This document shows, in pieces, positions 5,049 to 55,001 of a DNA stretch of 64,000 bases. Made by a program: the position numbers and the translations under genes. The notes under the pieces were generated by a model. That model did not search any database. It worked only from the letters and a program-made list of their open reading frames with translations, and was not told the origin of the DNA. The number at the start of each line of letters is the position of its first letter. Within the stretch, counting starts at the first letter, position 1. Source of the DNA: Chrysogorgia sp. JL179-B06 (taxonomy: Eukaryota; Cnidaria; Anthozoa; Scleralcyonacea; Chrysogorgiidae); NCBI GenBank assembly GCA_035772405.1, contig JAYKKM010000142.1, positions 2,710,998 through 2,774,997 on the forward strand, read 5' to 3'.

Positions 5049-5078
5049 CTAAGTTACTATACTATATATATCTTTAGA

Positions 5079-5269: not shown

Positions 5270-5271
5270 TT

Positions 5272-5994: not shown

Positions 5995-5996
5995 AA

Positions 5997-6187: not shown

Positions 6188-6217
6188 TCTAAAGATATAT
6201 ATAGTATAGTAACTTAG

Positions 6218-7360: not shown

Positions 7361-7388
7361 CACTATGTTATAGTCCCCCACAAAAAAA

Positions 7389-7559
7389 CTACTCGATGTG
7401 GGTGTTAGACCTTTTATAGATCTGGTTTGTTGTGTACCAACGCATCACATGTGTTTTATTAGTCTTCGGTTTTCTACGTCGTCTGAAAAAGTTTCTAATG
7501 TTACGAACCAGTTTTCTAAGTCTTCGAAGCTGAGATCCTCGAAGCTGAGACCAACCCAT
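7389..7559 (-). CDS. 56-aa arginine-rich basic protein
   Basis: ORF of 56 codons lying between the 68-aa gene (6-nt gap) and the Bro-N gene. It starts MGWSQL, repeats SQLR, and holds a run of basic residues (RNFFRRRRKPK). Strong basicity and placement beside virion genes are compatible with a DNA-condensing core protein, but also with a nuclear-localisation or membrane-active peptide. The MG start could be N-myristoylated only weakly. No homologue recognised. Confidence 0.55.
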   Translation of the reverse strand: MGWSQLRGSQLRRLRKLVRNIRNFFRRRRKPKTNKTHVMRWYTTNQIYKRSNTHIE

Positions 7560-7565
7560 TTTAAC

Positions 7566-7772
7566 TTAGGTCACGTCTCCTACCACTCCTACGGTGTCTG
7601 ACTCTGGTAACATAATAGGTTCGCCATAAGTCTTTTTAGACCTCATACCAATCTCAGCGTGGAGCTCTAGAGTCACGTCACCGCGGCCAAATGACCCACC
7701 AGCTTTGAACATGTGGTCAGTCGTTTTATTTATCTTATATATTTCATGAGGTCTCGAAAAACACGCTCCCAT
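7566..7772 (-). CDS. 68-aa protein with possible N-myristoylation site
   Basis: Starts MGACFSRP: Gly2 with Ser6, plus a neighbouring Cys, resembles a myristoylation/palmitoylation signal. The rest is short and beta-rich with no recognised domain. The start codon directly abuts the stop of the fibre-like gene (TAAATG), so it probably shares its transcript. Function unknown; membrane association is inferred. Confidence 0.55.
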   Translation of the reverse strand: MGACFSRPHEIYKINKTTDHMFKAGGSFGRGDVTLELHAEIGMRSKKTYGEPIMLPESDTVGVVGDVT

Positions 7773-8723: not shown

Positions 8724-8725
8724 TA

Positions 8726-10219: not shown

Positions 10220-10250
10220 ATGTTACACATAACACATGCTACATTATATA
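10205..10250. promoter_or_regulatory. divergent promoter-like region
   Basis: Only ~30 bp separates the 497-aa gene and paralogue 1. It contains AT-rich sequence with ATATACCATATGTTACACAT. The same motif (one base different) stands directly before paralogue 3 at 11,796-11,816, in a duplicated block. Conservation in front of two separately transcribed paralogues suggests an element-specific promoter; no host TATA/Inr arrangement was established. Confidence 0.45.
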
Positions 10251-10912
10251 TGGTCAGGGTTGTAGTATTGATTAGAGGTCCAACGGAAACTGTGGATCTA
10301 CCAGAGGCACTTTTGACGTTTGGTTCAGATCCTCACTTACTAGTGAAAAAAGCGACCATCTTTTGGGACTACATTAATGTGGAGACTGGTGTGAACGATG
10401 AAATAAGCTACAACAGCAACAAACACGTTTTTGGGTCTGGGTACCACACTTTTAAAATGATTGCTGACGAGTTGAAGGGATTAGGGGCTATCGAGCTAGT
10501 GGCCAACAAACACAATTCAAAGTGTGAGATAAAAACTGACCAACAATTAGAGCTGCTCAAATTTGGAGAGCTGTTAGGGTTCAGCGATAACACAACGATA
10601 ACCACTAGTGGTTTGGTCAGCCCTAATGTTGTGGATGTTAACAAAGGGCTGAAGTATGTACAAGTGGGTTGTAGCATTGTGAACAGACCTGAGAACATTG
10701 TTAATGGTATCAAAAGCGAGGTTATCGTCGAGTTACCATTGACCACCACTCAACCACTGAAGAGCTCTGTTCAACACTTCTTCAACATTGAGTCGAAGGT
10801 GTCGATAAACAAAGGCGCTTTTACGCAGCTGGTGTTTAATGTGACTGACCAAGATGGTAGTGGTGTCAACGTTGGTGACATATTGTTGGACTTGTATGCG
10901 ACGCTTGAGTAG
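10250..10912 (+). CDS. paralogue 1 of a triplicated virion-type protein
   Basis: 220 residues from the ATG at 10,250, chosen because its N-terminus (MVRVVVLIRG) aligns with paralogue 3 (MRKLTVFIEG) and sits just after the conserved promoter-like block; a longer frame from 10,133 overlaps the divergent gene. Shared landmarks in all three copies: K(T/K)AT(V/I)FW(N/D)Y near residue 35, an LG/LLGF segment mid-way, (N/Y)(K/R)GLKY(V/I), then a C-terminal strand set ending in LLDLYATLE. Beta-rich composition and position next to capsid genes suggest a minor capsid, penton or spike component; this is inference. Confidence 0.65.
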   Translation: MVRVVVLIRGPTETVDLPEALLTFGSDPHLLVKKATIFWDYINVETGVNDEISYNSNKHVFGSGYHTFKMIADELKGLGAIELVANKHNSKCEIKTDQQLELLKFGELLGFSDNTTITTSGLVSPNVVDVNKGLKYVQVGCSIVNRPENIVNGIKSEVIVELPLTTTQPLKSSVQHFFNIESKVSINKGAFTQLVFNVTDQDGSGVNVGDILLDLYATLE

Positions 10913-10937
10913 CTGACGTTAAACGCGCGCTAAAGTA

Positions 10938-11723
10938 ATGAGTCTAAACTATGGGTGTGACTCTGGTGGTTACACTGAAAAGCGACGTGCACACAACAAC
11001 CCTCAAAAGTTGATGGTGCTTGTTGAGGGTGTGGAGAAAGTCGTGACTTTTGACCATAGTGTGGTAGTCGCACACGATAACCCACACGTTGTAGTTAAGA
11101 CAGCCACTGTGTTTTGGAACTATGAAAATGTGGTGAGTAACACCACTACGCGACTCACCAATTCTCCTTCAGGGATAGTAATACAGGATATTCGAGTGGA
11201 CGGGGGCTACTACGAGTTCGACGCGTTGGTTAGAACTCTACGACACGCGCTCAAGACGCACGATGTAGACCTCATGGTGGAGAAACTGATAGCCACAGGT
11301 AAAAGTAGGGTCAAAAGTCAGTATCTTTTGAGTAAGTACTTCAATTTAAGTACGGAGCTTATGCTAGGTGACATCGGGCTTTTGTTTGGTTTTGCTAAGG
11401 ACGTGGGGATTGTGTCAGATGGTAAGTGGCATGACAGTCCAAACAAGATTGGCATGAATAGAGGTCTAAAGTATGTAGAGGTCTCGTGCGACGCTGTCGA
11501 GACGGAGAGCAATGTGGGCACTGATGGGAAACGTAGCGATGTGATCACAACATTGTCAATACCCACCGAGAAGTCTCTTGATGGAGGGGCGCAACATTAT
11601 GTATACGTCAACTCCAAGGTGAGAATTAAAAAAGGTATTTACTCAAGTATGACGTTTCGTGTTAAACCAAACAATGGTGACACTGACGTTGGTGTAGTGC
11701 TATTGGAACTGTGTATTGTGTGA
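10938..11723 (+). CDS. paralogue 2, with fibre-type leader
   Basis: 261 residues. After a ~30-residue leader beginning MSLNYGCDSGG the protein follows the paralogue pattern (VEKVVTFDHS, KTATVFWNYENV, LGDIGLLFGF, MNRGLKYVEVSCD, GVVLLELCIV). The leader, and about 30 bp of DNA around the ATG, match the start of the minus-strand fibre-like gene, unlike paralogues 1 and 3. This suggests exchange of 5' ends or a shared assembly peptide. 25 bp after paralogue 1. Confidence 0.65.
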   Translation: MSLNYGCDSGGYTEKRRAHNNPQKLMVLVEGVEKVVTFDHSVVVAHDNPHVVVKTATVFWNYENVVSNTTTRLTNSPSGIVIQDIRVDGGYYEFDALVRTLRHALKTHDVDLMVEKLIATGKSRVKSQYLLSKYFNLSTELMLGDIGLLFGFAKDVGIVSDGKWHDSPNKIGMNRGLKYVEVSCDAVETESNVGTDGKRSDVITTLSIPTEKSLDGGAQHYVYVNSKVRIKKGIYSSMTFRVKPNNGDTDVGVVLLELCIV

Positions 11724-11741
11724 ATTATGTGGAGCTTGGCG

Positions 11742-11816
11742 TGTAGCCTTCGGTGTGTTTGCCATCGCACGCTTGTAGCACTTTCTGCATAAAATATACC
11801 ATATGTTATACATAAT
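11742..11816. repeat. duplicated intergenic block with remnant 5' end of the 497-aa gene
   Basis: Minus-strand translation across this gap retains KCYKRAMANTPKATR, matching the start of the 497-aa protein (KYYKRAMASTSKATH), and the outer part repeats the divergent promoter-like motif. It is a partial copy of 10,130-10,235, showing that paralogue 3 arose by duplicating the whole divergent region. Confidence 0.85.
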
Positions 11817-12540
11817 GCGAAAGTTGACGGTGTTCATTGAAGGTGTGGAGAAAGTGGTGTCCTTTGACAACAGCGTGATGGTCACGCATGATAACCCATG
11901 CATTATGGTCAAGACAGCCACTGTGTTTTGGAACTATGATAATGTGACGGGTAGTAATACTATTCAAATATTATACGTTAGACAGAGTAGACCACGGCGA
12001 TGGTCCACGACAACTTGGTTGGATGAGGGTCACTACGACTTCGACGCATTGGTTAGAGCTCTACGACACGCGCTCAAGGTGCTCGATGTAGACCTCGTGG
12101 TGGAGAAACTGACGACCACAGGTAAAAGTAGGGTTAAAGCTCAGTCTACGAGTCGTAGCGTCACCGGAGTAGAGCTAAGGCTAGGTAGTATCGGGATTTT
12201 GCTTGGTTTCGCGAAGGATGTGGTAATCTTGATAGATAACAAGTGGCACACTAGCCCAAACGAGGTTGATATGTATAGAGGTCTGAAGTACATAGAAGTC
12301 TCATGTGATATTGTTGAGACAGAGAGTAATGTAGGTATTGATGGGAAGCGTAGCAATGTGATCACAACGTTGCCAATACCCACCGAGCAGCCCTTGAAGG
12401 GGTTAGTGCAACGCCATGTAGACATCGAATCCAAGGTGGGTGTTAAAAAAGGTGTTTACTCAAGTGTGACGTTTCGCGTCAAACCAAATAACGACGATCT
12501 CAAAATTGGCGCGGTGTTATTGGAACTGTATATTGTGTGA
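11815..12540 (+). CDS. paralogue 3 of a triplicated virion-type protein
   Basis: 241 residues from the ATG at 11,815. Closest to paralogue 2 (VEKVVSFDNS, KTATVFWNYDNV, YDFDALVRALRHALK, YRGLKYIEVSCDIVETESNVG, AVLLELYIV). It lacks the MSLNYG leader. It ends 5 nt before the integrase ATG. Probable structural protein; specific role unknown. Confidence 0.65.
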   Translation: MRKLTVFIEGVEKVVSFDNSVMVTHDNPCIMVKTATVFWNYDNVTGSNTIQILYVRQSRPRRWSTTTWLDEGHYDFDALVRALRHALKVLDVDLVVEKLTTTGKSRVKAQSTSRSVTGVELRLGSIGILLGFAKDVVILIDNKWHTSPNEVDMYRGLKYIEVSCDIVETESNVGIDGKRSNVITTLPIPTEQPLKGLVQRHVDIESKVGVKKGVYSSVTFRVKPNNDDLKIGAVLLELYIV

Positions 12541-12545
12541 ATTAT

Positions 12546-13649
12546 ATGGAACTTGGTGTGGAGACAGAACAAGGGTTGCGAGATATTTACTATAATCCCA
12601 AGACAGGGTACAGCGGTGCAGAGAAATTGTATCAAAGTGCATTGGGAGACGGATTGAAAGTGACTAGAAAAACAGTGAAAGAATGGTTGACAGCGCAGGA
12701 CACTTACACTAGGTACAAACCTATTGTGAGAAGACATAAATTCCGCGCGACTTTTGTTGGATTTCTTGGTGAAGAGCTCCAAATGGACTTAGTGGACATG
12801 AGTAAGTATTCAAAACAGAATGGAGGTTATTATTGGATATTGACAGGCATTGAAATATTGAGTAGATACGCTTTTGGAATTGCAGTTTATAGAAAAGACA
12901 CTAAGAACATGACTAAGGCTGTTGGAAAGTTGTTGGTTGACTTTAAAGATCGGTTTGGGACCACACCTAAGTTAGCGCAATTTGATGATGGGCTTGAGTT
13001 CTACAACGTTGGTGTGAAAAGTTTACTGAAAAAACATGGTGTCGAATATTTCAGCACTAAGAGTGATAAAAAGGCTGCTGTTGTCGAGCGTTTTAATAGA
13101 AGTCTGAAGAGCATTATGTGGAAGTATTTTTACGCTCGCGGGACGTACAAGTGGATTGGGGTTCTAGACCAGTTTGTGAGCAATTACAACAGCAGTGTGA
13201 ATCGAAGCATTATGATGAAACCGAAGGATGTCAATAAGTCAAACGAAAGCGAAGTGTGGACCACTTTGTTCGGTCACCAATTTGCAGACAACCCATTGCC
13301 GAAGTTCAAGGTTGGTCAATTAGTGAGAATTAGTAAATACAAGAGTGTGTTCACAAAGGGCTATGAAGCCAACTTCACTGAGGAGCTGTTTAAAGTGGTA
13401 AAGGTTATTCGTGGTGACCCTAATGTGTACGAAATTGAGGATCACACCGGTGAACAGATTATTGGGAAATTTTACGAACAGGAATTATCGCTGGTCAGTG
13501 AGAAACATGGCGACGATGTGTACAGAGTTGAGAAGGTGTTGAAAAGAAAGAAAGTCAGAGGAGAGAAGATGGCGCTGGTCAAATGGTTGGGTTATGAGAG
13601 CAAACATAATTCGTGGATACCAGAAAGCGATATTCAAAATGTGAGCTAA
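12546..13649 (+). CDS. retroviral-type integrase with chromodomain
   Basis: 367 residues from the ATG at 12,546 (a GTG lies three codons upstream). An N-terminal helical DNA-binding part (DIYYNPKTGYSG...KEWL) is followed by an rve core with catalytic Asp81 (QMDLVDM), Asp147 (QFDDGLEF) and Glu181 (VVERFNRS), the last two 33 residues apart. A C-terminal chromodomain (YRVEKVLKRKK...LVKWLGYESKHNSWIPESDI, residues ~325-365) probably targets chromatin. This is the Polinton/adintovirus integrase, which inserts the linear genome into host DNA. All three acidic residues are intact. Same transcription direction as the capsid genes. Confidence 0.92.
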   Translation: MELGVETEQGLRDIYYNPKTGYSGAEKLYQSALGDGLKVTRKTVKEWLTAQDTYTRYKPIVRRHKFRATFVGFLGEELQMDLVDMSKYSKQNGGYYWILTGIEILSRYAFGIAVYRKDTKNMTKAVGKLLVDFKDRFGTTPKLAQFDDGLEFYNVGVKSLLKKHGVEYFSTKSDKKAAVVERFNRSLKSIMWKYFYARGTYKWIGVLDQFVSNYNSSVNRSIMMKPKDVNKSNESEVWTTLFGHQFADNPLPKFKVGQLVRISKYKSVFTKGYEANFTEELFKVVKVIRGDPNVYEIEDHTGEQIIGKFYEQELSLVSEKHGDDVYRVEKVLKRKKVRGEKMALVKWLGYESKHNSWIPESDIQNVS

Positions 13650-13655
13650 TGTAAT

Positions 13656-14912
13656 ATGGCTGAAGGTGGGGAAGGTTTTGACGAGATTGAGATGGAGAAC
13701 CTTGGTAGAGTCTACACTGATGATCAAATAGATGCCGAACTTGAAAGTGTTACTCAAGATTACATTTTACTTGACGATAAGTACGCCGACGACGTTATGC
13801 CTGACGTTGAGCGTGTTGAGTACGATAAATTGTTCGACAAAATGATTAGATTACAGAATGAGCAAGAGAGGAGGTCTCGAGAGAAAGAGACGTCATTTAT
13901 CGACACTGACGATGGTAAAACGGTGACAATAAGGGGGACTAACACAGAAGTCCCAACAGTAGAGTTTGTTGAACAGGAGTCATATGGTGACGTCGATGAC
14001 ACGAGCTTCAGTATAGCTTTTGAAGAGGAGGAGGAAATTAAGAAAAGACTGGGTGAGCTAAAAGCGTCCAACAAAGAGCTAACAGAAAACAATGTAAAAA
14101 GAATCAAGCTAATAAGTAGGAAAATACGTAAATTGAGCAAAAAGGCACTCGGCCAAGACGACGCGTCAAGGAAAATAGTCAACAGGTCGCAGGTTACGGA
14201 CTCGGGGGCTATTCTTTTCAAACCGATAAACAAAGACGGTAAATATGGAAAACCCAAACGAATTCTAATACCTGGGAAAAAAGGCTTGATCTACAGTAAA
14301 GACGCGAGTAGTAAAAACGCGATTGAGCAGTTCAAAAAGTTAGTTAGTCAAATCCCCAAGAGCGCAGAGACAACGGCTGTCACAACAGAAGTAACCCCGG
14401 ATGACTTCCCAGTAATTGAGACAAGAGTGGGCTATGTCGACATACCTGGGCTATCACCAGACGAAAACCGCGAGCTGAATGGTGTGCTTAATCCAAGTGA
14501 TGGTGTGTTGCGTGAATCAAGAGTGGGTGATGATGGCGCACTGCAAGTGCAGGCAGACCACTTTCAAGAGACGATAGATGAGACGAATGAAAGAATAGCA
14601 GAGCTCGATAAAAAAAAAGACCTTACGATTGCAGAGAATGAAGAGTACATTGATCTACACGAAAGAGTGATTGGACTTACGCGAGCTAAATACAGAACTT
14701 TAGGACAGCGGCAAATAGAAGAGGTTAGAGAGCAACAAGAGATCGACATTGACAGATTTCAGAAATTTAGGGAATGGGCTAAAGAAAATATGGTTGGGTT
14801 GAGCGCTGTGGCAATTTCAATGGTTGGGATTATAACAACTATTATTATCGCTGGTAGATCTGCTGTTATGAAAGGCGCTATGGCCACGGAGGTCATTTGC
14901 GCAGGCTGTTAA
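13656..14912 (+). CDS. acidic coiled-coil protein with C-terminal membrane segment
   Basis: 418 residues. N-terminal ~130 residues are acidic, followed by a Lys-rich helix (KRIKLISRKIRKLSKKA), a central beta-type region, a long helix (HFQETIDETNERIAEL... REQQEIDIDRF) and a hydrophobic segment (SAVAISMVGIITTIIIAG). The frame stops at 14,912, but a +1 frame continues with further hydrophobic residues to 15,078, so the native protein was probably ~55 residues longer. Position between integrase and capsid protein, and the membrane segment, suggest a minor virion protein. Family not recognised. Confidence 0.65.
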   Translation: MAEGGEGFDEIEMENLGRVYTDDQIDAELESVTQDYILLDDKYADDVMPDVERVEYDKLFDKMIRLQNEQERRSREKETSFIDTDDGKTVTIRGTNTEVPTVEFVEQESYGDVDDTSFSIAFEEEEEIKKRLGELKASNKELTENNVKRIKLISRKIRKLSKKALGQDDASRKIVNRSQVTDSGAILFKPINKDGKYGKPKRILIPGKKGLIYSKDASSKNAIEQFKKLVSQIPKSAETTAVTTEVTPDDFPVIETRVGYVDIPGLSPDENRELNGVLNPSDGVLRESRVGDDGALQVQADHFQETIDETNERIAELDKKKDLTIAENEEYIDLHERVIGLTRAKYRTLGQRQIEEVREQQEIDIDRFQKFREWAKENMVGLSAVAISMVGIITTIIIAGRSAVMKGAMATEVICAGC

Positions 14913-15078
14913 GAACGCAATCGCGAAGATGGGTCCATGGGCTGTTGGATTGGCTAACTTAGTTTACAATGCGTTGACGTTGGGTGCGAAGGGTCTCGCA
15001 TGGTTGGCTCAAAATCTGTGGGTACTTGCGGTGGTACTTGCGTGGTTTGCGTATGATTATTACAAGCTAAAACGGTAG
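14872..15078 (+). pseudogene. out-of-frame C-terminal extension of the preceding gene
   Basis: After the stop TGA at 14,869-14,871 in this frame, an open stretch runs to the TAG at 15,076-15,078 with two hydrophobic helices (GPWAVGLANLVYNAL and NLWVLAVVLAWFAYDYY). It has no good start of its own except an internal ATG at 14,928. The switch point must lie between 14,872 and 14,910. A single-base indel, possibly a sequencing error, is the simplest explanation. Confidence 0.6.
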
Positions 15079-15100
15079 CGATAAAACATATGTAAAGTAT

Positions 15101-16339
15101 ATGAACGCCACGTCAGCAGAATTGAGTCCCGGTTTTAGACGAGCGACCATGGGTGTCATAAAAGGGGCGAGAACACAGCACGTGATCACGTTGAACCCTA
15201 ACAAAGTCAGTCCTGGTGAGGAACTCTACATCGATGTACCGAAGCTCAAGGTTAGTAGCTGCTTGGTGCCTGGGTCGTTGGGTCTAGTGTTTGACTTTAA
15301 GAACGCGAACGCTAAAAGTTGGTTCTTGAATAATGTGAGCAAGTTGCTTTGTGAGAAACTTGTTGTGAGACTAGCTGGGGAGACTGTGTATGACAACAAC
15401 GGGGAAAATTACACTGGTGTTTATCGCGACCTTTGGGAAAGCATCACTGCGCGAAATCAAATGATTGATTATGGCATCGCTGGTGAGAACTTGAGAAAGC
15501 TAATTTCTAAGGACGATAGTGGCGCGACGAGTGGAGACGTTGTTAAGGTTAGTGACGCATTGATGTTTAGCGTGATTGGAACGAAACAGCGAATAAAGCT
15601 TGGTAAAATCATGAGTGACCACGGGTTGTACGCTCCTTTTAGCATGAACAACAACTTGCAGTACGTCATCACACTTCCGAAGGCCGCAGACATCATGGTG
15701 GCGCAATCCGGTAGCGCTGTGGGTGGGTACACTCTGGAGAACCTCGAGCTTGAGTACGAGACGATTGATAACCAGGAGCTCGCTGATGAAATAGCGTCAG
15801 GCTATGCAAGTGGTCGTAGTTTGTCGTACGAGCACGTTACGTTGATGAAAACCACCGAATGGGACAAAGGCACGACCATTGTGAACGAGAACATTAATCT
15901 ACCAAGAAAAAGCATGAAGGCAATCGTGTTGCTATTCACGAATAAGGTGCGAGCAGACAGTGAGGAGTTTCTTTTCCCAAATATCGAGAGTGTTAGAGTC
16001 ACGATTGAAGGTGTGCCAAATAGTGTGTACTCGCAAGGCATTCCGAAGTCGAAGTTCTATGCAGAAGCGAAACGATTGTTTGGGTTGGGTGAAGAGCACG
16101 CCCAGTTCATGACCATACAGAAATTCTATAAAAATAGTTTTGCGTTGGTCATCGACTTGAGGAGCGTCCAAGATAATTACAACGTCGCCACTGGTAAAAA
16201 AATTGTGAACACACAATCTGGCGTGCTTCTTGAGATCACTAAAAAAGCGACGACTGCAAATGTCATGTGTAGGGTGTTTGTGATGAGTGATGGACTGGTC
16301 AACTTCATGAACAATGGGTTGCAGTCAATCCAGTATTAA
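15101..16339 (+). CDS. major capsid protein (putative double jelly-roll)
   Basis: 412 residues, beta-rich, with the conserved blocks of the Polinton-relative capsid family recurring in invertebrate genomes: LNPNKVSPGEELYIDVPKLK, LVPGSLGLVFDF, LCEKLVVRLAGETVYDN, YRDLW, and QGIPKSKFYAEAKRLFG in the second half. It lies directly before the packaging ATPase, as in other adintovirus-like elements. It would form the hexagonal capsomers. The fold itself cannot be proven from sequence alone; structure prediction would settle it. Frame intact. Confidence 0.8.
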   Translation: MNATSAELSPGFRRATMGVIKGARTQHVITLNPNKVSPGEELYIDVPKLKVSSCLVPGSLGLVFDFKNANAKSWFLNNVSKLLCEKLVVRLAGETVYDNNGENYTGVYRDLWESITARNQMIDYGIAGENLRKLISKDDSGATSGDVVKVSDALMFSVIGTKQRIKLGKIMSDHGLYAPFSMNNNLQYVITLPKAADIMVAQSGSAVGGYTLENLELEYETIDNQELADEIASGYASGRSLSYEHVTLMKTTEWDKGTTIVNENINLPRKSMKAIVLLFTNKVRADSEEFLFPNIESVRVTIEGVPNSVYSQGIPKSKFYAEAKRLFGLGEEHAQFMTIQKFYKNSFALVIDLRSVQDNYNVATGKKIVNTQSGVLLEITKKATTANVMCRVFVMSDGLVNFMNNGLQSIQY

Positions 16340-16354
16340 ATCAAGCGTGAGTTA

Positions 16355-16954
16355 ATGGAGACTCCGTTTAATATGCTAATTGTTGGTATGACAGCTTGTG
16401 GTAAGACGCATTATTTGCTGGAAACATTGGAATCTGAGTACTTTAGTAAATTTGACTACATTGTGTTCATTTGCCCTACTTTCGAGTGGAACAAAGCGTA
16501 CCAAGATTGGAAATATGTGCGTGACCCTGACGTGCTAGCGATAGACTGCACACAGGACAATGTCGACGCTGTTCTCAAGTGTGTAACAAACATTTTTAAA
16601 GGAACAAACACTCTAATTGTGCTAGACGACTGTGCAAGTTCTCAAGATGTCAAGAATAGGACTAGTCAATTGGTCAACTTGGCTTTTAGTGCGCGACATT
16701 TTACGCTGAGCGTTATTGTCATCACACAACAACTGACGTCAATCGCGAAACCGTATAGAGAAAACATTAGTAAGCTCGTTTGCTTCTACTGCCCGAGTAG
16801 GAGTGACATGAAGGTCGTTATTGACGATTACCTTGGGCACATTAGCAAAGAAGAAGTGTCAACGATTGTGACCGCACTAAAAAATAATAAATACGCTAGA
16901 CTTGAAATCTCACTGCGTTATCCATACAATTACGAAGTTGTTATTCCGCAATAA
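16355..16954 (+). CDS. A32-type DNA-packaging ATPase
   Basis: 199 residues with Walker A GMTACGKT (residues 11-18), Walker B LIVLDDC (~88-94) and a downstream ITQQL sensor-like segment. The length and compact P-loop fold match the FtsK/HerA-superfamily packaging ATPases of Polintons, virophages and adintoviruses, which drive genome packaging into capsids. 15 bp after the capsid gene, 3 bp before the next gene; likely co-transcribed. All catalytic motifs intact. Confidence 0.9.
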   Translation: METPFNMLIVGMTACGKTHYLLETLESEYFSKFDYIVFICPTFEWNKAYQDWKYVRDPDVLAIDCTQDNVDAVLKCVTNIFKGTNTLIVLDDCASSQDVKNRTSQLVNLAFSARHFTLSVIVITQQLTSIAKPYRENISKLVCFYCPSRSDMKVVIDDYLGHISKEEVSTIVTALKNNKYARLEISLRYPYNYEVVIPQ

Positions 16955-16957
16955 AAT

Positions 16958-17473
16958 ATGGGTATAAGTAGTAGCGCGATGGTGAAACGCAAAAGCGATG
17001 AAAATCCCACGATTGAGGAATTAGTCGAGGAGACCGATGACACCTCGACTGTGGACACTGACGACACTGACGTTAGGAGGGCTGAACTTATTAGACTGTC
17101 TGGTGATGGTGTGGTAAGCCAATCCGAAGCATACATTAAAAAAGCGTCCGCAAAGGTTATCGACAAGATATGGCGCCAACACGAGTTGAAGAGAGTGGAA
17201 ATTGCAAACGCTTTTCTCACCGACTTGCTAATCAGCAAATTCGCTAGCCTACTGGATGGGTTGAACGCTATTGAGAACTCTGACGAACTAAACGACGAGT
17301 TACAAAAAGACCCGTTATTAAAAAAAGACGTTGAGAGCATTGTCGCGGTTGTGACACCGTACGTACCTTTCTTGGGCTTGTTGTCGGGAGGAATTATAAC
17401 GTCGAAACATGTGTACGATCACCATTTTAGAAGTGAGGTGGTAACCACTGAAAACAGTGAGCAAACGGACTAA
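16958..17473 (+). CDS. unrecognised 171-aa protein, possible N-myristoylation
   Basis: Starts MGISSSAM, a good myristoylation context (Gly2, Ser6). Residues ~15-50 are acidic and Thr-rich, the middle is helical (SEAYIKKASAKVIDKIWRQHELKRVEIANAF), and a hydrophobic stretch follows (VPFLGLLSGGIIT, ~140-152). Last gene of the plus-strand block, 3 bp after the ATPase. Possibly a membrane-associated virion protein; family unknown. Confidence 0.6.
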   Translation: MGISSSAMVKRKSDENPTIEELVEETDDTSTVDTDDTDVRRAELIRLSGDGVVSQSEAYIKKASAKVIDKIWRQHELKRVEIANAFLTDLLISKFASLLDGLNAIENSDELNDELQKDPLLKKDVESIVAVVTPYVPFLGLLSGGIITSKHVYDHHFRSEVVTTENSEQTD

Positions 17474-17545
17474 TTCGTAAAATAGTTGGCTATTTGTTAG
17501 TCAATGTTGTTAGCCAATCAAAAGAGCACCATTTGGATAAACACT

Positions 17546-32356: not shown

Positions 32357-34679
32357 TTTATTTATTTTATTTTTATTTATAGACAATATTTACACACGGC
32401 ACAATTTCACCTAATAAATATTAAAATATTTACAAAGGAACAAACAACTATATAACAATGAAGACAAAATAATGTATTACATTTATATGAACTCAACCCA
32501 ACTGAAGTATTTGTTTCACTTTTGATTTGAAGTTTGAAATATTATCCGATGTTTTTAGAGATGTAGGAAGATTATTCCAATTTTCCGCACCTCTGTGGCT
32601 AAATGAATTATTCATATAGTTCGTTTTTGGCTTTGGTAATATCAAACTGGCTTTTGACTGCCTTGTGTTGTGATCATGTACATCGCGAGTATTTGTAAAC
32701 ATGTCACACAAGTATTCTGCAACCAATTTGTTTTTTACCTTGTACATTAAGATAGAAAGATGTTGCGCTCTTCTCTTTTCAAGATTCGAAAATCCTAACT
32801 TGTTTAAAATGTCGACTGATCGTGTTGCATAACCCTCACGTGTGATAATGCGAAACGCTCTATTCTGTAATTTTTGGAGTTTATTGGATAATGTTATTCC
32901 AAGGCAGCCCATACCTGCGCACAATAATCAAAGTATGGCTGAATTATAGAATGATATATAGTTATTAAAGTGGTAAAACCAACTGTATCTCGGAGTTGTC
33001 GAAGGATACTGAGACCCGAAGTGACCTTATTTGAAATATGATCAACATGCACAGTCCAGCTTAGAGACTCGTCTATCATTAGGCCCAATGATTTTGTCGT
33101 TTTAACTCTCTTAATTTCTAAATTACCCACATTGATGACTGGGTCAAAAGTTAATTGACTAAACCTTTTCTTAGAACCAATAAGCATGTATTCGGTTTTA
33201 CTTTTGTTTAGAGTCAATTTGCTAGCAGTCAGCCAATTTGCAACATTATTTAAATCGTCATTTAAAGCTTCAGTAATTTCATTTATATCATCACTTGCTG
33301 TTGCAATTTGGGTGTCGTCCGCAAACATGTGTGATTTTGCATTGTTTAAGCATTTTGGTAACTCGCTGATGTAAATTAGAAATAACAATGGACCTAAACC
33401 GGAACCTTGGGGTATACCTGTCTTCATCGTTAATGAGTTAGATAGACGACAATTTATGTAACAATACTGGGTCCTGTTAGATAGATAAGACTCCAGCCAG
33501 CAATGCGCAGTTCCCTTTATTTCACAGATTGCTATTTTATCTAAAAGTATTTTGTAGTCAACAGTATCGAATGCTTTTTAAGGTCGAGCAACACGATCCC
33601 GTTTAGTTTGCCAATATCAATATTGTTATACCACTTATTGGTAATATCTAATAATGCTGTAACTGTTGAGTATAAAGGTCGAAATCCATGTTGGCAATTT
33701 GTAAGTAAATTTGAATTATTTTAATAGTCATAGATCTGGTTATAATAATAATAATAATAATAAATGTCTTTATTTCATCACAAGATAAAAAATACATATC
33801 TTATGTTACATCATATTAGTAAACTAATTAACTTACAAGGATATAACCTATACCTATTTACAAAGCTAAATATATTTAAAATTAGACAGTTAATATAAGA
33901 ATTTTGAAACAATTGGTATTAATCTTTAGAAAGTTACTAGACTTATTTCTACATTCATGCTACAGTGCTAAATTATATTTAAAAATTAGACGGTTAATAT
34001 GAGAATTTTTGAAACGATCTGTATTAATATTTGGAAAGTTACTAGATTTATTTCTAAGTTCATATCTATTAATCTTCTTCTTTGGCAATAAGATCCTTAA
34101 CGGGTGCTGTTCAATTTGCGCGACCTTGCTAAAAAGTTTTCTATCTTGCTTTTCTAGCAGTTCCTGCACACTAATTTCCCTCGAAATATATTTGCGTTTA
34201 TAACATCTTCGCAAAAAGCATTCAATTTTTGTAAGTTCAGATTTAGAAGCACCATATACTGGAAGAGCATATGTAATATTTGGTAGTACTAAGGTAATAA
34301 ATAAATGATCAATCTCTTTCTTATTATAGCCTTCCTTGCGTAATGATCTTAGGATGAAAAGGCACTTGTTAGCCTTTTTTAGTTTTTCATAAACATGAAT
34401 TGTAGATCTGCTATCTTCTTGGAATGTGACTCCTAACATAACGATATGGATCAGGTTATGGATCAGCTTTTCCAAAATTTTGGCAACTACTGATATTAGA
34501 GATATGGGTCTATAATTTGTCATCTCATCTTTAGCTTCTGATTTATAAATTGGGGTAATTCTGGCAATTTTCCAATCATGAGGAAATATACCTGTTAAAA
34601 TGGACTGGTTGAATATTGATGTAAGAGATGGCGCAATAATTGGTGCCGCAGTTTTTAAGACACGAGTAGAAATACCATC
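32357..34679 (-). mobile_element. LINE-B copy 3, 3' part, with nested LINE-A (33,740-34,455)
   Basis: RT palm at 33,427-32,894 and C-terminal frame 32,924-32,493. A ~75-bp piece of 3' UTR present in other copies is missing here. LINE-A entry at 34,455. At 34,680 LINE-B stops and LINE-C begins; it resumes at 39,387. Confidence 0.88.
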
Positions 34680-34876
34680 TTTAATCTTTAATTAAATTTC
34701 TTTACACACGGTAGCCTATTCAGTAAAACTGTTTTTCAAAGGGCCGTGCTATTATAGTTAAAAATAAGTACAGCATAAACCTAACTATATATAAATATAT
34801 CAATAAACAATACTAAAATAAAAATACAAATGTAAGTCAATATATACAATTATATTACAAGTCGTCAGCTATTCAA

Positions 34877-35653
34877 TTATGAAAGATTCTTAAGTCGTCG
34901 TTTGAATGACGAGATAGATAGACTTTGATAATTGTCAGTTACTTCATTGGACAGTTCGTTCCACGAAATTGCAGCCCTATATGAGTAACTTGTTTTAAGG
35001 TAATTAGCATTTGGTTTTGCCAAAGTAAGTTTAGTGCCATTACTTCGTAAATTGTAATTTTCATTATCACAAGTATTAAATAAGTCAACAAGATAATTTG
35101 GTAATTTCGATGTCAATGCTCTAAATGTCATCAAAGTTTGACGATTTCCTAGAATCTCGTGAATTGACATCCAACCAAGTTTTTCTAAAATTTCAGTGGA
35201 ACGAACATTGTAAGTATCACCAGTTATAACACGCGCCGCTCTCTTTTGTTGTTTTGAAAGTTTATTAATATGAGTAATACAACCATCGTTCCAGACAGTT
35301 GAGCAATATCTGAAGTGAGGCAACACTAAAGCATTATACATATTTATTAGAATTTTTTGGGGAACAAATGATTTTGCCCTTCGAAGTAAAGCAATGTTTT
35401 TCGAAATTTTCTTACATTGTACTTCATTGTGTTTTCCCCACTTCAGCTGTTCATCAAGAGTTACACCAAGTGATTTCTTATGGGGGACTTGTTTGATTTT
35501 ATCACCCCCTATGCTTATTTCAGGGCTTTCGTTAATTGAGGCCAGATGATATTTGGAGCCAATAATCATAAATTCGGTTTTAGTTTTATTGAGTGTGAGT
35601 TTATTTCCCATAAGCCACTGGTGAACATTATCGAGATCATTATTAAAGTGCAT
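34877..35653 (-). CDS. LINE-C reverse transcriptase, C-terminal part (partial)
   Basis: 258 residues directly downstream of the RT active site: thumb-like NVHQWLMGNKLTLNKTKTEFMIIGS, the LGVTLDEQLKW motif, then LPHFRYCSTVW and a C-terminal region ending SFKRRLKNLS. This arrangement is standard for ORF2 of CR1/jockey-type LINEs. It is separated from the active-site part by the 1.81-kb TTAA element, whose inserted end supplies the apparent start codon; not a real gene start. Confidence 0.85.
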   Translation of the reverse strand: MHFNNDLDNVHQWLMGNKLTLNKTKTEFMIIGSKYHLASINESPEISIGGDKIKQVPHKKSLGVTLDEQLKWGKHNEVQCKKISKNIALLRRAKSFVPQKILINMYNALVLPHFRYCSTVWNDGCITHINKLSKQQKRAARVITGDTYNVRSTEILEKLGWMSIHEILGNRQTLMTFRALTSKLPNYLVDLFNTCDNENYNLRSNGTKLTLAKPNANYLKTSYSYRAAISWNELSNEVTDNYQSLSISSFKRRLKNLS

Positions 35654-35954
35654 ATAAGCCCTACAGGGTTTTTAGTTATTCGTGTAGACCACGAAAAATG
35701 ACCTAATAAAGTATTTTACAGTTTTTTATTTGGTCCTTTCGTTTCCGAGATATTGCTCTTCAAACATAGCCATTTGGCGTTGTTTGCATAAAATGCCGCG
35801 CGTGAGAGAGTCCTGGTACTCGGGGACGGATTAGATCTTCACAAACAAGGAATACATAGCGTTTTGGACAACAACAAGTTCAAAAGATCATATATCAAGT
35901 GAAATCGCCGCGATATCACGCTCAAATTCAGACTCAAATGAGTATGAAAGCCCA

Positions 35955-36344
35955 TTGTCTAGTTCAGATAATATAATCGAGGAAGAAACTGAACTATCGG
36001 CGAAATATGAGGACGAGTCTGATGACTGTTTCATGGACGCCTACGCTGATGAGCCGTTTGCTGACGCAGAATGGCTTGCCGCGTATGAAAGAAGAAGGGA
36101 GGAGGACAAAAAACACTTGGAACAACTTACTCGAAGGTGGAATGGTGCTGAATCCGTCAAATCTTGGTACGTTTATTGCGCCATATTTGTCATATATTTC
36201 ATCAATTTATTTTATGTACAGTATGGTATGGGTTTATTGGTTTATTGTATAGCCTATAGTATAGGTGCAAGTGTGGGAACTATTACAGTTCGTTGTAACT
36301 GTAAAACCCTAGGGAAATGTTCGACTGTTTCGTGCATAACTTGA
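35955..36344 (+). other. captured exon-like ORF, left arm copy
   Basis: Encodes an acidic Ser/Glu/Asp-rich segment (SSSDNIIEEETEL...SDDCFMDAYADEP, EWLAAYERRREEDKKHLEQL). Likeness to the right-arm ORF ends at a G|GTACGT splice-donor-like site near 36,166, after which the frame runs through intron-like sequence. Upstream part is frame-broken. Confidence 0.55.
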
Positions 36345-36924
36345 ACATCCTGGCTTTGGAATTTGGTCCTGTTTGTCTCAACAGATGGAGTTTGAACACT
36401 TTTTCAGACACGAGACGGACGTCGATACAATCAAATATTATCAAAAGAAAGGTAATATGAGAGGCCAAACTATTAAAATATTTAGCAAACAACCTTGTCA
36501 ATATCAAACTAAACATAGAAAAAATTTAATTTTACCATTCCATTTTATAATAGGTGTCTATGTGTAGTTTAATATTGACAAGGTTGTTTGCTAAATATTT
36601 TAACATACTTTGGCCTCTCATATTACGTCCAATTCGTGTCTGAAAAGTGTTTGCCGCTAACTCCAAACTTCATCTGTTGAGACAAACAGGACCAAAGCCA
36701 GGATCTTCAGTCATGCACGGAGGCTGTTAACCTACGACTTCAATCAATTTAGTGTCGCTCAAAACAGTCGAACATTTCTTATTTCTGTGCAGCAACAACA
36801 TTCCGTAGGGTTTTACAGTTACAACGACATCAATACAGTTCTCCCACTAGTTGCACCTATACTACAGGCTATACAATAAACCCATACCATACTGTACATA
36901 AAATAAATTAATGAAAGATATGAC

Positions 36925-37350
36925 CTATATGGCGCAATGAACGTACCAAGATTTTACGGATTCAGCACCATTCCACCTTCGAGTAAGTTGTTCCAAGTGT
37001 TTTTTGTCCTCCTCCCTTCTTCTTTCATACGCGGCAAGCCATTCTTCGTCAGCCAACGGCTCATCAGCGTAGGCGTCCATGAAACAGTCATCAGACTCGT
37101 CCTCATATTTCGCCAATAGTTCAGTTTCTTCCTCGATTATATTATCTGAACTAGACAATGGGCTTTCATACTTATTTGAGTCTGAATTTGAGTGTGATAT
37201 CGCGGCGATTTCACTTGATATATGATCTTTTGAACTTGTTGTTGTCCAAAACGTTATGTATTCCTTGTTTGTGAAATCTAATCCGTCCCCGAGTACCAGG
37301 ACTCTCTCACGCGCGGCTTTCAACGCCAAATGGCTATGTTTGAAGAGCAA
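36925..37350 (-). other. captured exon-like ORF, right arm copy (more intact)
   Basis: 141 codons starting MLFKHSHLALKAARER; about 128 codons to the donor-like site after ...AESVKSW. A polypyrimidine/AG and a short second exon candidate ending AAG|GTAATA follow in the arm (plus-strand copy near 36,360-36,453). Could be the acidic N-terminus of a piggyBac transposase or a captured host exon. Identity unknown. Confidence 0.5.
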
Positions 37351-37456
37351 TATCTCGGAAACGAAAGGACCAAATCCAAAACTGTAAAATACTTTATCAG
37401 GTCATTTTTTGTGGTCTACACGAATAACTGAAAACCCCGTAGGGCTTATATGCACT

Positions 37457-38511
37457 TTAAGTTTATTTTGTATCTCATAGGAATTATTACCTTTACAAGT
37501 GAGATTCGTATCATCAGCGAATAAAGTCGCCTCAGTTTTTTCCAAACAATTCGGTAAATCATTTATATACAGGAGAAAAAGGATGGGACCAAGGTTAGAT
37601 CCTTGTGGTACTCCACAACCAATTTCTCCTGTATCGGATGATCTGCCGTTTATTACACAAATTTGTTTTCTGTTCCCGATATAGGACTTAAACCATTCGA
37701 GAGTGTTCCCTCTTATACCATAAAATTAAAGTTTTGAGATAAGGATCTCATGATTAACAGTATCGAATGCTTTTTTGAGATCTAAAAACAGGACACCGCT
37801 AATCATACCTTTATCCATGTTGTATAGCCATTCATTCGTAGAACTAAGCAACGTAGTTTCGGTAGAATGTTGTAACCGGAAACCAGACTGCTGTTCAACG
37901 AGGATATTATTTTCAGTCATAAATAATCTTAGCTGTTTGCATACCAATTTCTCAAAAAGTTTAGCGACAACAGAGATTACCGAAATTGGTCGATAGTTAC
38001 CACAATCAGTTTTATCTCCTTCCGTGAAGATTGGCGAAACTTTAGCTAATTTCCAGTCCTCAAAGAAGATTGCTGTCTGAAGTGACAGATTATAAATGCG
38101 CAATAGCGACTCAGTAATAGTTTCACCAGCGTCTTTTAATAGCTTCATACTGATACCATCAATACCTGATGATTTTTTAGTTTTTAATTGGCTTAAAGTG
38201 TTCATTAATTCCAGACTGGTCACATTTCTGAAATAGAACGAGTTTTCAACAGGAGTCACAAAGCTCAATGGATCAATATCACTGTCTTTAATATTATCAG
38301 CTAATTTAGAGCCAATTGTTGAAAAATATTTATTAAATCCATTAGCAATATCTTTATCTCCAGTTAAAATTTGATCATTAGCGTTCAATTGTTTGACTTG
38401 CGTGGTCTTGGATTTCTTATTTAACAATTCATTAATAGCTTGCCAGCTTTCTTTGCTATTTTTAGCTTTGCTTAATTTTGTTGTTTCTTTCCCGTAACTC
38501 GTCATTTTCAT
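37457..38511 (-). CDS. LINE-C reverse transcriptase, active-site part (partial)
   Basis: From 38,511: linker [16 protein letters not shown], fingers [16 protein letters not shown] and [19 protein letters not shown], motif [19 protein letters not shown]. After a frame break near 37,725 come [20 protein letters not shown] and the catalytic FADD (~37,515). Cut at 37,456 by the TTAA insertion. The start overlaps the end of ORF1 in another frame, with no endonuclease domain between. Confidence 0.85.
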
Positions 38512-39289
38512 TCTTTAGCTTTATAATCTCTTCCCTTAGACCAGTAACAAGGTCATCAGAGCGATAGAGATTCTCATTTCTGATATCGTTGATTTCGGTT
38601 GATAGAGCTTCGACTTTTGCACTAATAGTTTCTGCAAATTGTTCAATTTTACTCTTAAGATCAGTCAATGATGATTTGTCACACTGGGCAGTTTCTTTTC
38701 CCAGGGGAGTGGTGTTGTTACCCACAATATGTAAATTATCTTGATCTTGAAGCACGAGATTTGAATTGACTTTCTTTTCACGCTCATATTTTTCCCTATT
38801 TCGAATGATTGTTAATAATTTGGCCTTAACCTCATCAGCCTTAGCTCCTTTAAGGGTGAGCGATCCTTTGGTGGAGTACCAACGAATTGATAACTCTTCA
38901 CTTTCATAAAGTTTTGAACCACCGCCTGGTGATGTCCACTTTGCACACGGCAACTTCAAATCAACAACGAGGTCACAAAGACCTTCGAAATTGCCGAGCC
39001 ATTTTAAGTTTCCCCTCTCTGAGGTTACCAAATCATTCCCAAATGATGTACTAGGTATGACCATGTAGCATGAATTAACATCCAGGCATAGAGTAGATTC
39101 TTCCTGGATATTGTAGATTTCCAGGGTATGGTCATCTTCAAGTTGTTTGTCATTGAAGGTAAGTCGCTGTTGATCGGGAGGAAATCCTTCCGTATCTTGG
39201 ATTTTGAACTTTAAATTCATAATTGTATCCTTAGGATCGATTTCGAGAGCTGTAATCTTACCATTTTGGGTCTTCACAAGGATTTTCAT
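38462..39289 (-). CDS. LINE-C ORF1 with N-terminal ubiquitin-like domain and coiled coil
   Basis: 275 residues. Residues 1-~72 follow the ubiquitin fold signature: [18 protein letters not shown] start, [19 protein letters not shown] core, [20 protein letters not shown] end. The Gly-Gly tail needed for conjugation is not present; the domain runs on into LCLDVNS. Residues ~85-160 form a second domain ([32 protein letters not shown]). Residues ~205-275 are a coiled coil ([16 protein letters not shown]). Coiled coil fits LINE ORF1 RNA-binding trimers; the ubiquitin-like head is unusual. Repeated at 46,448-47,095 and 54,078-54,905. Confidence 0.8.
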
Positions 39290-39386
39290 GATGAAATTTT
39301 ATCAAAATTTGTCAGAGTTCAACAAAACACGTCTTGCATCAATCAATGCAAATTCTCCACTGCAAATTCTCCAATGCAAATTCTCC

Positions 39387-45400: not shown

Positions 45401-47191
45401 AGATCCTTGTGGTACTCCACAACCAATTTCTCCTGTATCGGATGATCTGCCGTTTTATTACACAAATTTGTTTTCTGTTCCCGATATAGGACTTAAACCA
45501 TTCGAGAGTGTTCCCTCTTATACCATAAAATTAAAGTTTTGAGATAAGGATCTCATGATTAACAGTATCGAATGCTTTTTTGAGATCTAAAAACAGGACA
45601 CCGCTAATCATACCTTTATCCATGTTGTTATAGCCATTCATTCGTAGAACTAAGCAACGTAGTTTCGGTAGAATGTTGTAACCGGAAACCAGACTGCTGT
45701 TCAACGAGGATATTATTTTCAGTCATAAATAATCTTAGCTGTTTGCATACCAATTTCTCAAAAAGTTTAGCGACAACAGAGATTACCGAAATTGGTCGAT
45801 AGTTACCACAATCAGTTTTATCTCCTTCCGTGAAGATTGGCGAAACTTTAGCTAATTTCCAGTCCTCAAAGAAGATTGCTGTCTGAAGTGACAGATTATA
45901 AATGCGCAATAGCGACTCAGTAATAGTTTCACCAGCGTCTTTTAATAGCTTCATACTGATACCATCATACCTGATGATTTTTTAGTTTTTAACTGGCTTA
46001 AAAGTGTTCATTAATTCCAGACTGGTCACATTTCTGAAATAGAACGAGTTTTCAACAGGAGTCACAAAGCTCCATGGATCAATATCACTGTCTTTAATAT
46101 TATCAGCTAATTTAGAGCCAATTGTTGAAAAATATTTATTAAACCATTAGCAATATCTTTATCTCCAGTTAAAATTTGATCATTAGCGTTCAATTGTTTG
46201 ACTTGCGTGGTCTTGGATTTCTTATTTAACAATTCATTAATAGCTTGCCAGCTTTCTTTGCTATTTTTAGCTTTGCTTAATTTTGTTGTTTCTTTCCCGT
46301 AACTCGTCATTTTCATTCTTTAGCTTTATAATCTCTTCCCTTAGACCAGTAACAAGGTCATCAGAGCGATAGAGATTCTCATTTCTGATATCGTTGATTT
46401 CGGTTGATAGAGCTTCGACTTTTGCACTAATAGTTTCTGCAAATTGTTCAATTTTTACTCTTAAGATCAGTCAATGATGATTTGTCACACTGGGCAGTTT
46501 CTTTTCCCAGGGGAGTGATGTTGTTACCCACAATATGTAAATTATCTTGAACTTGAAGCACGAGATTTGAATTGACTTTCTTTTCACGCTCATATTTTTC
46601 CCTATTTCGAATGATTGATAATAATTTGGCCTTAACCTCATCAGCCTTAGCTCCTTTAAGGGTGAGCGATCCTTTGGTGGAGTACCAACGAATTGATAAC
46701 TCTTCACTTTCATAAAGTTTTGAACCACCGCCTGGTGATGTCCACTTTGCACACGGCAACTTCAAATCAACAACGAGGTCACAAAGACCCTCGAAATTGC
46801 CGAGCCATTTTAAGTTTCCCCTCTCTGAGGTTACCAAATCATTCCCAAATGATGTACTATGTATGACCATGTAGCATGAATTAACATCCAGGCATAGAGT
46901 AGATTCTTCCTGGATATTGTAGATTTCCAGGGTATGGTCATCTTCAAGTTGTTTGTCATTGAAGGTAAGTCGCTGTTGATCGGGAGGAAATCCTTCCGTA
47001 TCTTGGATTTTGAACTTTAAATTCATAATTGTATCCTTAGGATCGATTTCGAGAGCTGTAATCTTACCATTTTGGGTCTTCACAAGGATTTTCATGATGA
47101 AATTTATCAAAATTTGTCAGAGTTCAACAAAACACGTCTTGCATCAATCAATGCAAATTCTCCACTGCAAATTCTCCAATGCAAATTCTCC
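42481..47191 (-). mobile_element. LINE-C copy 2
   Basis: Same layout as copy 1. ORF1 with the ubiquitin-like head starts at 47,095 and is shifted by one extra T near 46,455. RT pieces at 46,316-46,107, 45,954-45,628, 43,456-43,067 and 42,972-42,691 are separated by single-base indels in homopolymers. Confidence 0.85.
43450..45260. mobile_element. TTAA-flanked fold-back element, copy 2
   Basis: TTAA at 43,446-43,449 and 45,261-45,264. Same arms and exon-like ORFs (43,758-44,147 plus; 45,154-44,711 minus). Confidence 0.88.
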
Positions 47192-53200: not shown

Positions 53201-55001
53201 GGACCAAGGTTAGATCCTTGTGGTACTCCACAACCAATTTCTCCTGTATCGGATGATCTGCCGTTTATTACACAAATTTGTTTTCTGTTCCCGATATAGG
53301 ACTTAAACCATTCGAGAGTGTTCCCTCTTATACCATAAAATTAAAGTTTTGAGATAAGGATCTCATGATTAACAGTATCGAATGCTTTTTTTGAGATCTA
53401 AAAACAGGACACCGCTAATCATACCTTTATCCATGTTGTATAGCCATTCATTCGTAGAACTAAGCAACGTAGTTTCGGTAGAATGTTGTAACCGGAAACC
53501 AGACTGCTGTTCAACGAGGATATTATTTTCAGTCATAAATAATCTTAGCTGTTTGCATACCAATTTCTCAAAAAGTTTAGCGACAACAGAGATTACCGAA
53601 ATTGGTCGATAGTTACCACAATCAGTTTTATCTCCTTCCGTGAAGATTGGCGAAACTTTAGCTAATTTCCAGTCCTCAAAGAAGATTGCTGTCTGAAGTG
53701 ACAGATTATAAATGCGCAATAGCGACTCAGTAATAGTTTCACCAGCGTCTTTTAATAGCTTCATACTGATACCATCAATACCTGATGATTTTTTAGTTTT
53801 TAACTGGCTTAAAGTGTTCATTAATTCCAGACTGGTCACATTTCTGAAATAGAACGAGTTTTCAACAGGAGTCACAAAGCTCAATGGATCAATATCACTG
53901 TCTTTAATATTATCAGCTAATTAAGAGTCAATTGTTGAAAAATATTTATTAAATCCATTAGCAATATCTTTATCTCCAGTTAAAATTTGATCATTAGCGT
54001 TCAATTGTTTGACTTGCGTGGTCTTGGATTTCTTATTTAACAATTCATTAATAGCTTGCCAGCTTTCTTTGCTATTTTTAGCTTTGCTTAATTTTGTTGT
54101 TTCTTTCCCGTAACTCGTCATTTTCATTCTTTAGCTTTATAATCTCTTCCCTTAGACCAGTAACAAGGTCATCAGAGCGATAGAGATTCTCATTTCTGAT
54201 ATCGTTGATTTCGGTTGATAGAGCTTCGACTTTTGCACTAATAGTTTCTGCAAATTGTTCAATTTTACTCTTAAGATCAGTCAATGATGATTTGTCACAC
54301 TGGGCAGTTTCTTTTCCCAGGGGAGTGGTGTTGTTACCCACAATATGTAAATTATCTTGATCTTGAAGCACGAGATTTGAATTGACTTTCTTTTCACGCT
54401 CATATTTTTCCCTATTTCGAATGATTGATAATAATTTGGCCTTAACCTCATCAGCCTTAGCTCCTTTAAGGGTGAGCGATCCTTTGGTGGAGTACCAACG
54501 AATTGATAACTCTTCACTTTCATAAAGTTTTGAACCACCGCCTGGTGATGTCCACTTTGCACACGGCAACTTCAAATCAACAACGAGGTCACAAAGACCT
54601 TCGAAATTGCCGAGCCATTTTAAGTTTCCCCTCTCTGAGGTTACCAAATCATTCCCAAATGATGTACTAGGTATGACCATGTAGCATGAATTAACATCCA
54701 GGCATAGAGTAGATTCTTCCTGGATATTGTAGATTTCCAGGGTATGGTCATCTTCAAGTTGTTTGTCATTGAAGGTAAGTCGCTGTTGATCGGGAGGAAA
54801 TCCTTCCGTATCTTGGATTTTGAACTTTAAATTCATAATTGTATCCTTAGGATCGATTTCGAGAGCTGTAATCTTACCATTTTGGGTCTTCACAAGGATT
54901 TTCATGATGAAATTTATCAAAATTTGTCAGAGTTCAACAAAACACGTCTTGCATCAATCAATGCAAATTCTCCACTGCAAATTCTCCAATGCAAATTCTC
55001 C
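50292..55001 (-). mobile_element. LINE-C copy 3
   Basis: ORF1 intact (54,905-54,078, 275 codons from the MKILVK start), RT fingers/palm 54,127-53,921 and 53,884-53,369, C-terminal part 51,265-50,552. A premature stop near 53,920 and one-base indels separate the RT pieces. Confidence 0.85.
51259..53071. mobile_element. TTAA-flanked fold-back element, copy 3
   Basis: TTAA at 51,255-51,258 and 53,072-53,075. Exon-like ORFs at 51,569-51,958 (plus) and 52,965-52,540 (minus). Confidence 0.88.

Follow-up and report, generated by a model that had tools for sequence, protein, structure and literature searches.

A ubiquitin-like head on LINE ORF1 proteins of Chrysogorgia sp. JL179-B06 and its probable exchange between LINE lineages

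The ORF1 protein of a LINE in the genome of Chrysogorgia sp. JL179-B06 (Cnidaria, Anthozoa) begins with a ubiquitin-like domain, hereafter the head, which very probably originated from ubiquitin itself. The head has probably been exchanged between LINE lineages, as its presence conflicts with the trees of the rest of ORF1. We regard an explanation that combines capture of the head, its exchange and its use for docking as reasonably likely. The putative docking, through a face other than the Ile44 patch, is the weakest step of this explanation and is proposed tentatively.

The window, which is the whole stretch of DNA analysed here, covers 64,000 nucleotides (contig JAYKKM010000142.1, positions 2,710,998 to 2,774,997), and its LINE features are listed in Table 1. 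By ORF reading, the truncated LINE ORF1 has 275 aa and lies on the minus strand. The first-pass annotation gave the right position (38462..39289), to which the minus strand has to be added; the plus-strand translation of this interval is riddled with stops. Residues 3-69 match the Pfam ubiquitin family (PF00240) with an E value of 1.3e-21, and residues 1-69 match solved ubiquitins with an E value of about 1e-21, which excludes a chance likeness. The identity between the window head and ubiquitin is 63%. The AF2 model, built on an alignment of six sequences, gave a beta-grasp fold for the head, with strands at 2-6 and 12-16, a helix at 23-34, a strand at 41-45, a short helix at 56-59 and a strand at 66-71; the pLDDT was 83-88 in ten-residue blocks save one block at 73. 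Foldseek with the head model returned rmsd values of 0.5-0.9 Å in 41 of the 50 rows listed, and all 50 were ubiquitins or their fusions. Thus the proposal of the first-pass annotation that ORF1 opens with a ubiquitin-like domain is borne out by Pfam, by the solved ubiquitins and by the predicted fold. The second domain and the coiled coil that it placed behind the head are also present in the model, at about residues 86-163 and as a long helix at 205-274.

Table 1. Features of the family A LINE and its copies in the window
Feature	Position	Strand	Evidence
LINE of family A (LINE-C of the first-pass annotation), internally deleted, inside another LINE	34679..39386 (ends approximate)	minus	outer frame break, empty sites, 3' tail
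ORF2 remnant, last part (residues 701-955)	34883..35647	minus	95.3% identity to L009 ORF2
Nested 1.8-kb inverted-repeat element splitting RT	35643..37460	no strand	arms of 140 and 402 nt, 96-97% complementary; ORF2 match resumes beyond
ORF2 remnant, first RT part (L009 ORF2 residues 361-701)	37459..38481	minus	98.5% identity; RVT_1 1.7e-15
Truncated ORF1, 275 aa	38462..39289	minus	P0001, P0002 and L009 run on past its end
Coiled-coil helix, residues 205-274 of model, cut by deletion	38468..38677	minus	
Deletion join, 5-bp microhomology	38478..38482	minus	base-by-base comparison with L009
Second ("KW") domain, residues 86-163, possible nucleic-acid-binding domain	38801..39034	minus	
Ubiquitin-like head, residues 1-70	39080..39289	minus	PF00240, AF2 model, Foldseek
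Second tandem copy of truncated ORF1, frame-broken, internal stops	46448..47110	minus	
Third tandem copy of truncated ORF1, open	54078..54905	minus	

The family A LINE interrupts the frame of the outer LINE between GLGPNKAS and GIDGIS, and uninterrupted outer-LINE copies, i.e. empty sites, lie near 19.98 kb and 31.29 kb. Its 3' tail is an ATTAAAG repeat as in L009 and L011. Compared with L009, the window copy is without 2,124 bp, comprising the end of ORF1 and the endonuclease, and the deletion fuses the ORF1 coiled coil to the ORF2 stretch between endonuclease and RT. Splicing was rejected as the cause, since the missing stretch has neither a GT start nor an AG end. The units at 39289, 47110 and 54920 (39.3, 47.1 and 54.9 kb) agree at 99.3-99.6% over 5.6 kb, a length that takes in the flank; judged by sequence, a single internally deleted insertion was duplicated in tandem to give the three window copies. 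The first-pass annotation stated that all three copies keep the head. Head and second domain are indeed matched in all three, but the second copy has stops inside, and three duplicates of a single insertion, near-identical even in flank, prove no conservation. The outer LINE with the deleted inner LINE inside it was also found on three other contigs (L013, L014, L015) with 97-99% identity, which means that this composite spread after the inner insertion. These loci share 785 bp of flank upstream of the ATG with the window copies, again at 97-99% identity.

Some other features of the window may be mentioned. Positions 1-17500 carry a Maverick/Polinton-like gene set, with an integrase with chromodomain and a large protein with an endonuclease VII match, and a perfect 679-nt inverted repeat lies at 4948-6318. 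A minisatellite with units of about 82-100 nt forms blocks at 20.2-21.3, 31.5-32.4, 39.6-40.1, 47.5-48.0 and 55.3-61.4 kb, and the last block is an array of about 6 kb.

A protein-level search of the assembly that contains the window (781 Mb, 522 contigs) gave at least 142 match rows. Among the best candidates scored, 41 of 142 rows were single matches spanning both the head and the KW domain, with a start at residue 1 or 2 and an end at residue 158 or further on; their identities were 32-100%, and 31 of the 41 had no internal stop; the 41 include the three window copies and the three composite copies. Intact elements were identified in family A (L009-L011), with open frames of 616 codons for ORF1 and 964-965 codons for ORF2, and in family B (L017, L018), with 653 and 629 codons for ORF1 and 979 codons for ORF2. 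The complete architecture is an ORF1 with ubiquitin-like head, KW domain, coiled coil and GDSL esterase, and an ORF2 with endonuclease and RT. The L009 ORF1 of 609 aa ends in the GDSL esterase, a domain lacking in the deleted window copies. Pfam finds ubiquitin and GDSL esterase together in ORF1 of L009, L017, L023 and L025. The esterase (PF13472) is above the cut-off in L017 and L023 and below it in L009 (32.8 bits against 32.9), L025 (17.3) and the truncated L021, and the esterase motifs GDS, GTND and G-HLN are found in families A, B, D and E. The coiled coil ahead of the esterase, which corresponds to the helix of the model, is a motif common to the relatives. ORF2 of both L009 and L017 contains PF03372 (endonuclease) and PF00078 (RT), and the endonuclease is absent from the window copy. 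No UBA domain was among the Pfam matches of L009, L017, L023 and L025 at E up to 0.01. From their anatomy, that is the ORF1 type and the 3' tail, we infer that these elements are CR1/L2-like LINEs.

PF00240 scored above the cut-off in eight families, as a full head in A, B, C, D, G, H and the fragment I (L047), and as the second half only in family E. In the headless loci L028-L033 and L035-L038 it was found in 0 of 10 at E up to 1. Family H is a broken copy, and L049 of family G is frame-broken behind the KW domain. The homology of family E to L027 begins 40 nt ahead of its ATG, and by this the half head may be natural; 5' truncation is the rival cause.

Protein searches outside the genome, as suggested in the first-pass annotation, returned four more headed proteins (P0003, P0005, P0016, P0032), all with PF00240 above the cut-off. 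P0005 is 94% identical to family D. P0016 is a protein of the gorgonian octocoral Paramuricea clavata with the database label "ubiquitin", but it is a LINE ORF1; its identity to family D is 62% in an alignment of 384 columns that includes the head. Names of P. clavata stood on 6 of the 46 proteins returned by one protein search. No relatives were found in prokaryote genomes, IMG/VR or phages.

The head was called uncleaved in the first-pass annotation, and this agrees with every head read: the C-terminal GG is absent in the translations of families A, B, C, D, E, G, H and I and of P0003, P0005, P0016 and P0032. Full heads are 42-73% identical to ubiquitin and 31-42% identical to NEDD8. Every full head is nearer to ubiquitin, and an origin from NEDD8 was thus ruled out. 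Positions were classed as core or as Ile44 patch and rim according to their roles in ubiquitin. In nine heads (A, B, C, D, E, G, H, I and P0003), the core positions were hydrophobic in 127 of 128 cells, and were equal to ubiquitin in 102/128 cells versus 28/79 for the Ile44 patch and rim; once P0016 and P0032 were included, the values became 128/158 for the core versus 35/97 for patch and rim. The positions kept in 11/11 heads (K29, L43, F45, L56, Y59, S65) are mostly structural. Of the patch residues, L8 survives in 2/10 heads, I44 in 3/11, H68 in 2/11 and V70 in 2/11; family H keeps L8 and V70, with M44. K48 is kept in 7/11 heads and lost in 4/11. Across families, outside the tandem array, the dN/dS test that the first-pass annotation had proposed gave 0.12-0.49 in 18 of 21 family pairs, as ratios of NG86 values at near-saturated synonymous sites, and dS was undefined in the other three. 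Selection maintains the fold of the head, but not its usual recognition face. The heads share the beta-grasp fold with ubiquitin, but differ from it in that they have no GG tail, have mostly lost the Ile44 patch and are a permanent part of a larger protein.

The KW domain behind the head may be a nucleic-acid binder, and the leads are weak. The first structural matches of its model were to the RNase H3 N-domain (DUF3378), for which PMC4132731 gives an order of helix, three-stranded sheet and helix like that predicted for KW. Profile matches among 16 KW sequences, at E 0.027 and 0.059, were to DUF3378 in one and to RnlA in two, all below the cut-off. Such below-cut-off matches recur for L033, L036 and L037, with an RnlA value of 0.0075 in P0011; a set of 10 further ORF1s gave no match to either profile at E up to 5. 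The KH-domain model of PARP14 matched KW with 0.0061, 0.0093 and 0.016, as good as or better than DUF3378 and RnlA; a KH domain is likewise no better than a lead. Searching KW against PDB sequences gave 15 rows with a best E of 0.068, and RNase H3 was absent from them.

The history of the head was examined with two trees. In the KW tree (26 rows), the placement of 16 headed or half-headed rows in one clade was rejected (p-AU 7e-5), and one clade of the 11 headed rows without E and G was not rejected (p-AU 0.137). In the tree of coiled coil and esterase (25 rows), in which P0016 and P0032 are gappy, P0002, P0037, P0012 and P0028 sit on long branches, and P0014, P0030, P0033 and P0048 were left out because the cutting motif was not found in them, one clade of seven full-headed rows was rejected (p-AU 5.5e-4). 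A single vertical history of the head was thus rejected on both trees, though not for the set without E and G. Compared piece by piece with ORF2 of family A, that of C is 71-75% identical, that of E 50-64%, that of B 45% and that of D 36-45%, and the headless family F has 63-75% over ORF2 residues 1-439. The A head is 57% identical to the B head and 49% to the C head, an order opposite to that of ORF2. The head tree also groups A with B at 80/81, with 8 of its 10 inner branches open.

Synonymous differences were compared with a rough saturation model (60 draws, codon usage of one ORF1 each). The heads lay 3.4-5.0 s.d. below saturation in the pairs A-B (5.0), A-G, A-H, B-G, B-H and G-H, versus -1.8 to +1.5 s.d. 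for the KW domains of the same pairs and -3.1 to +0.2 s.d. for other head pairs. The KW domain was below saturation too in B-C (z -4.6) and, more weakly, in C-E (-2.8) and C-D (-2.5), which means either that pieces besides the head may have moved or that the model is rough. The low synonymous divergence of the heads might also come from constraint close to the start codon, but this does not account for the conflict with ORF2. Between heads and host ubiquitin, the mean synonymous differences over 12 repeats were 0.69-0.85, counted without the saturation model, which is against a recent capture. Q2K occurs in 8/10 heads, and this pattern would fit one capture. Taken together, trees, ORF2 identities and synonymous data suggest an old capture with exchange later. 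The host polyubiquitin (L051, L052) has A28T in 10 of the 12 repeats read, unusual for so conserved a protein. A28T was rejected as a mark of capture, as T28 occurs in just 3/11 heads and at a fast site.

In families B and G, copies that are 98-99.9% identical from shortly upstream of the ATG carry different leaders, so 5' ends do get swapped. The switch lies about 21 nt ahead of the ATG in L018/L019 versus L017/L020, and about 34 nt ahead in L041 versus L039/L040/L044. The motif GACGTGT, which resembles a downstream promoter element, is common to families A, B, D and G (L009, L017, L023, L041) at about 40-60 nt ahead of the ORF1 ATG, and is followed by TGAGCTCC in three of these four families.

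Domain swapping is a known trait of LINE ORF1 proteins, and the place of the head is filled differently in related ORF1s. According to Pfam, the INI1 (SMARCB1) DNA-binding domain opens P0019, P0020, P0023 and P0038 (E 3e-19 to 2e-22) and a SAP domain opens P0021 (E 1.2e-8); P0022 has an INI1 label in its precomputed domains. The termite protein P0048 has a PHD finger and then a GDSL match just under the cut-off. Headless relatives with full-length ORF1, such as P0006, indicate that the head is dispensable to some relatives.

We propose that a host ubiquitin frame was joined long ago to the 5' end of ORF1, that loss of the diglycine tail would have left the head attached, and that the head would later have been handed between LINE lineages via 5'-end recombination; other lineages would have put SAP or SMARCB1/INI1 in its place or left the place empty. 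The head would then sit at the tip of the ORF1p oligomer and serve there for docking, as a module that is folded but cannot be conjugated. It would bind a host protein via a face distinct from the Ile44 patch and thereby place the RNP. Contact with nucleic acid would be made by the KW domain, while oligomerisation and lipid binding would fall to the coiled coil and the esterase.

This docking role and its rivals are all putative, and we rank docking ahead of a tag for folding and solubility, followed by a degron and receptor mimicry on an equal footing. Ubiquitin raises the yield of ribosomal fusion proteins, and a fast-folding ubiquitin fold at the N-terminus could likewise raise the yield of ORF1p with no specific partner. 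The erosion of the patch is accounted for equally well if the fold serves folding or solubility only, as the core is kept, the surface is free to change and the invariant positions are mostly structural. We consider it somewhat unlikely, since INI1 and SAP, which by their Pfam names bind DNA or chromatin, stand in the same place and suggest targeting; for the same reason docking via another face is favoured.

The two remaining functions meet the same difficulty. As a ubiquitin-fusion degron, the uncleavable head would allow chain extension via K29 or K48, turnover of ORF1p and a limit on copy number, and the absent GG tail, the invariant K29 and the K48 of most heads are consistent with this. 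The loss of K48 in four heads and of most of the Ile44 patch, which recognition of ubiquitin usually needs, makes it improbable. Mimicry or sequestration of ubiquitin receptors via the normal surface is equally improbable: the fold is nearly identical to ubiquitin and family H retains part of the patch, but the four patch residues survive in few heads. The suggestion of the first-pass annotation that the head recruits or evades ubiquitin receptors is therefore not supported for the usual surface, given the low agreement of the patch compared with the core. As to origin, the idea that a ubiquitin pseudogene became fused to a LINE just once could point to ubiquitin-like relics elsewhere in the genome, but it is refuted and keeps hardly any probability, because the head recurs in several diverged families, in intact elements and in another species. 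Of the two findings that the first-pass annotation named as refuting its reading, a one-off fusion and a fold other than a beta-grasp, neither applies. The two relics, L048 (C437) and L053 (C300), have changes common to both and no GG, and no LINE frame was present in the short stretches read.

Five ORF1 types are described in PMC4120745, in which the word ubiquitin does not occur. The esterase-type (Type IV) ORF1 of CR1/L2 elements, such as ZfL2-1, has, according to PMC3905857 and PMC4120745, the same coiled coil followed by a GDSL/SGNH esterase, with endonuclease and RT in ORF2, and the LINEs described here differ from it by the ubiquitin-like head and KW domain added in front. Transposon esterases from cnidarians and sponges are already aligned in PMC3905857. 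The PHD-headed CR1/L2 ORF1s of PMC4120745 also bear a small host-type N-terminal domain, reported there to be shuffled; the occupant differs, being ubiquitin here and INI1 or SAP in relatives. No ubiquitin-headed LINE ORF1 was found among the matches listed from the open-access literature.

Tentatively, the N-terminus may be an exchangeable docking slot for domains taken from the host (ubiquitin, INI1 or SAP), which LINE lineages would trade by 5' recombination, with their fold maintained by selection and their surface re-tailored. The adjoining predicted nucleic-acid-binding domain, perhaps related to that of RNase HIII, might supply the contact with RNA or RNA/DNA hybrid that is otherwise missing from esterase-type ORF1p. 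The KW domain bears on the question, asked in PMC3905857, of how esterase-type ORF1 proteins contact RNA. The finding would also explain why the Paramuricea clavata LINE ORF1 protein P0016 is filed as "ubiquitin" in the database. If the proposed history is true, a host signalling protein was captured by a retrotransposon and then traded between retrotransposon lineages.
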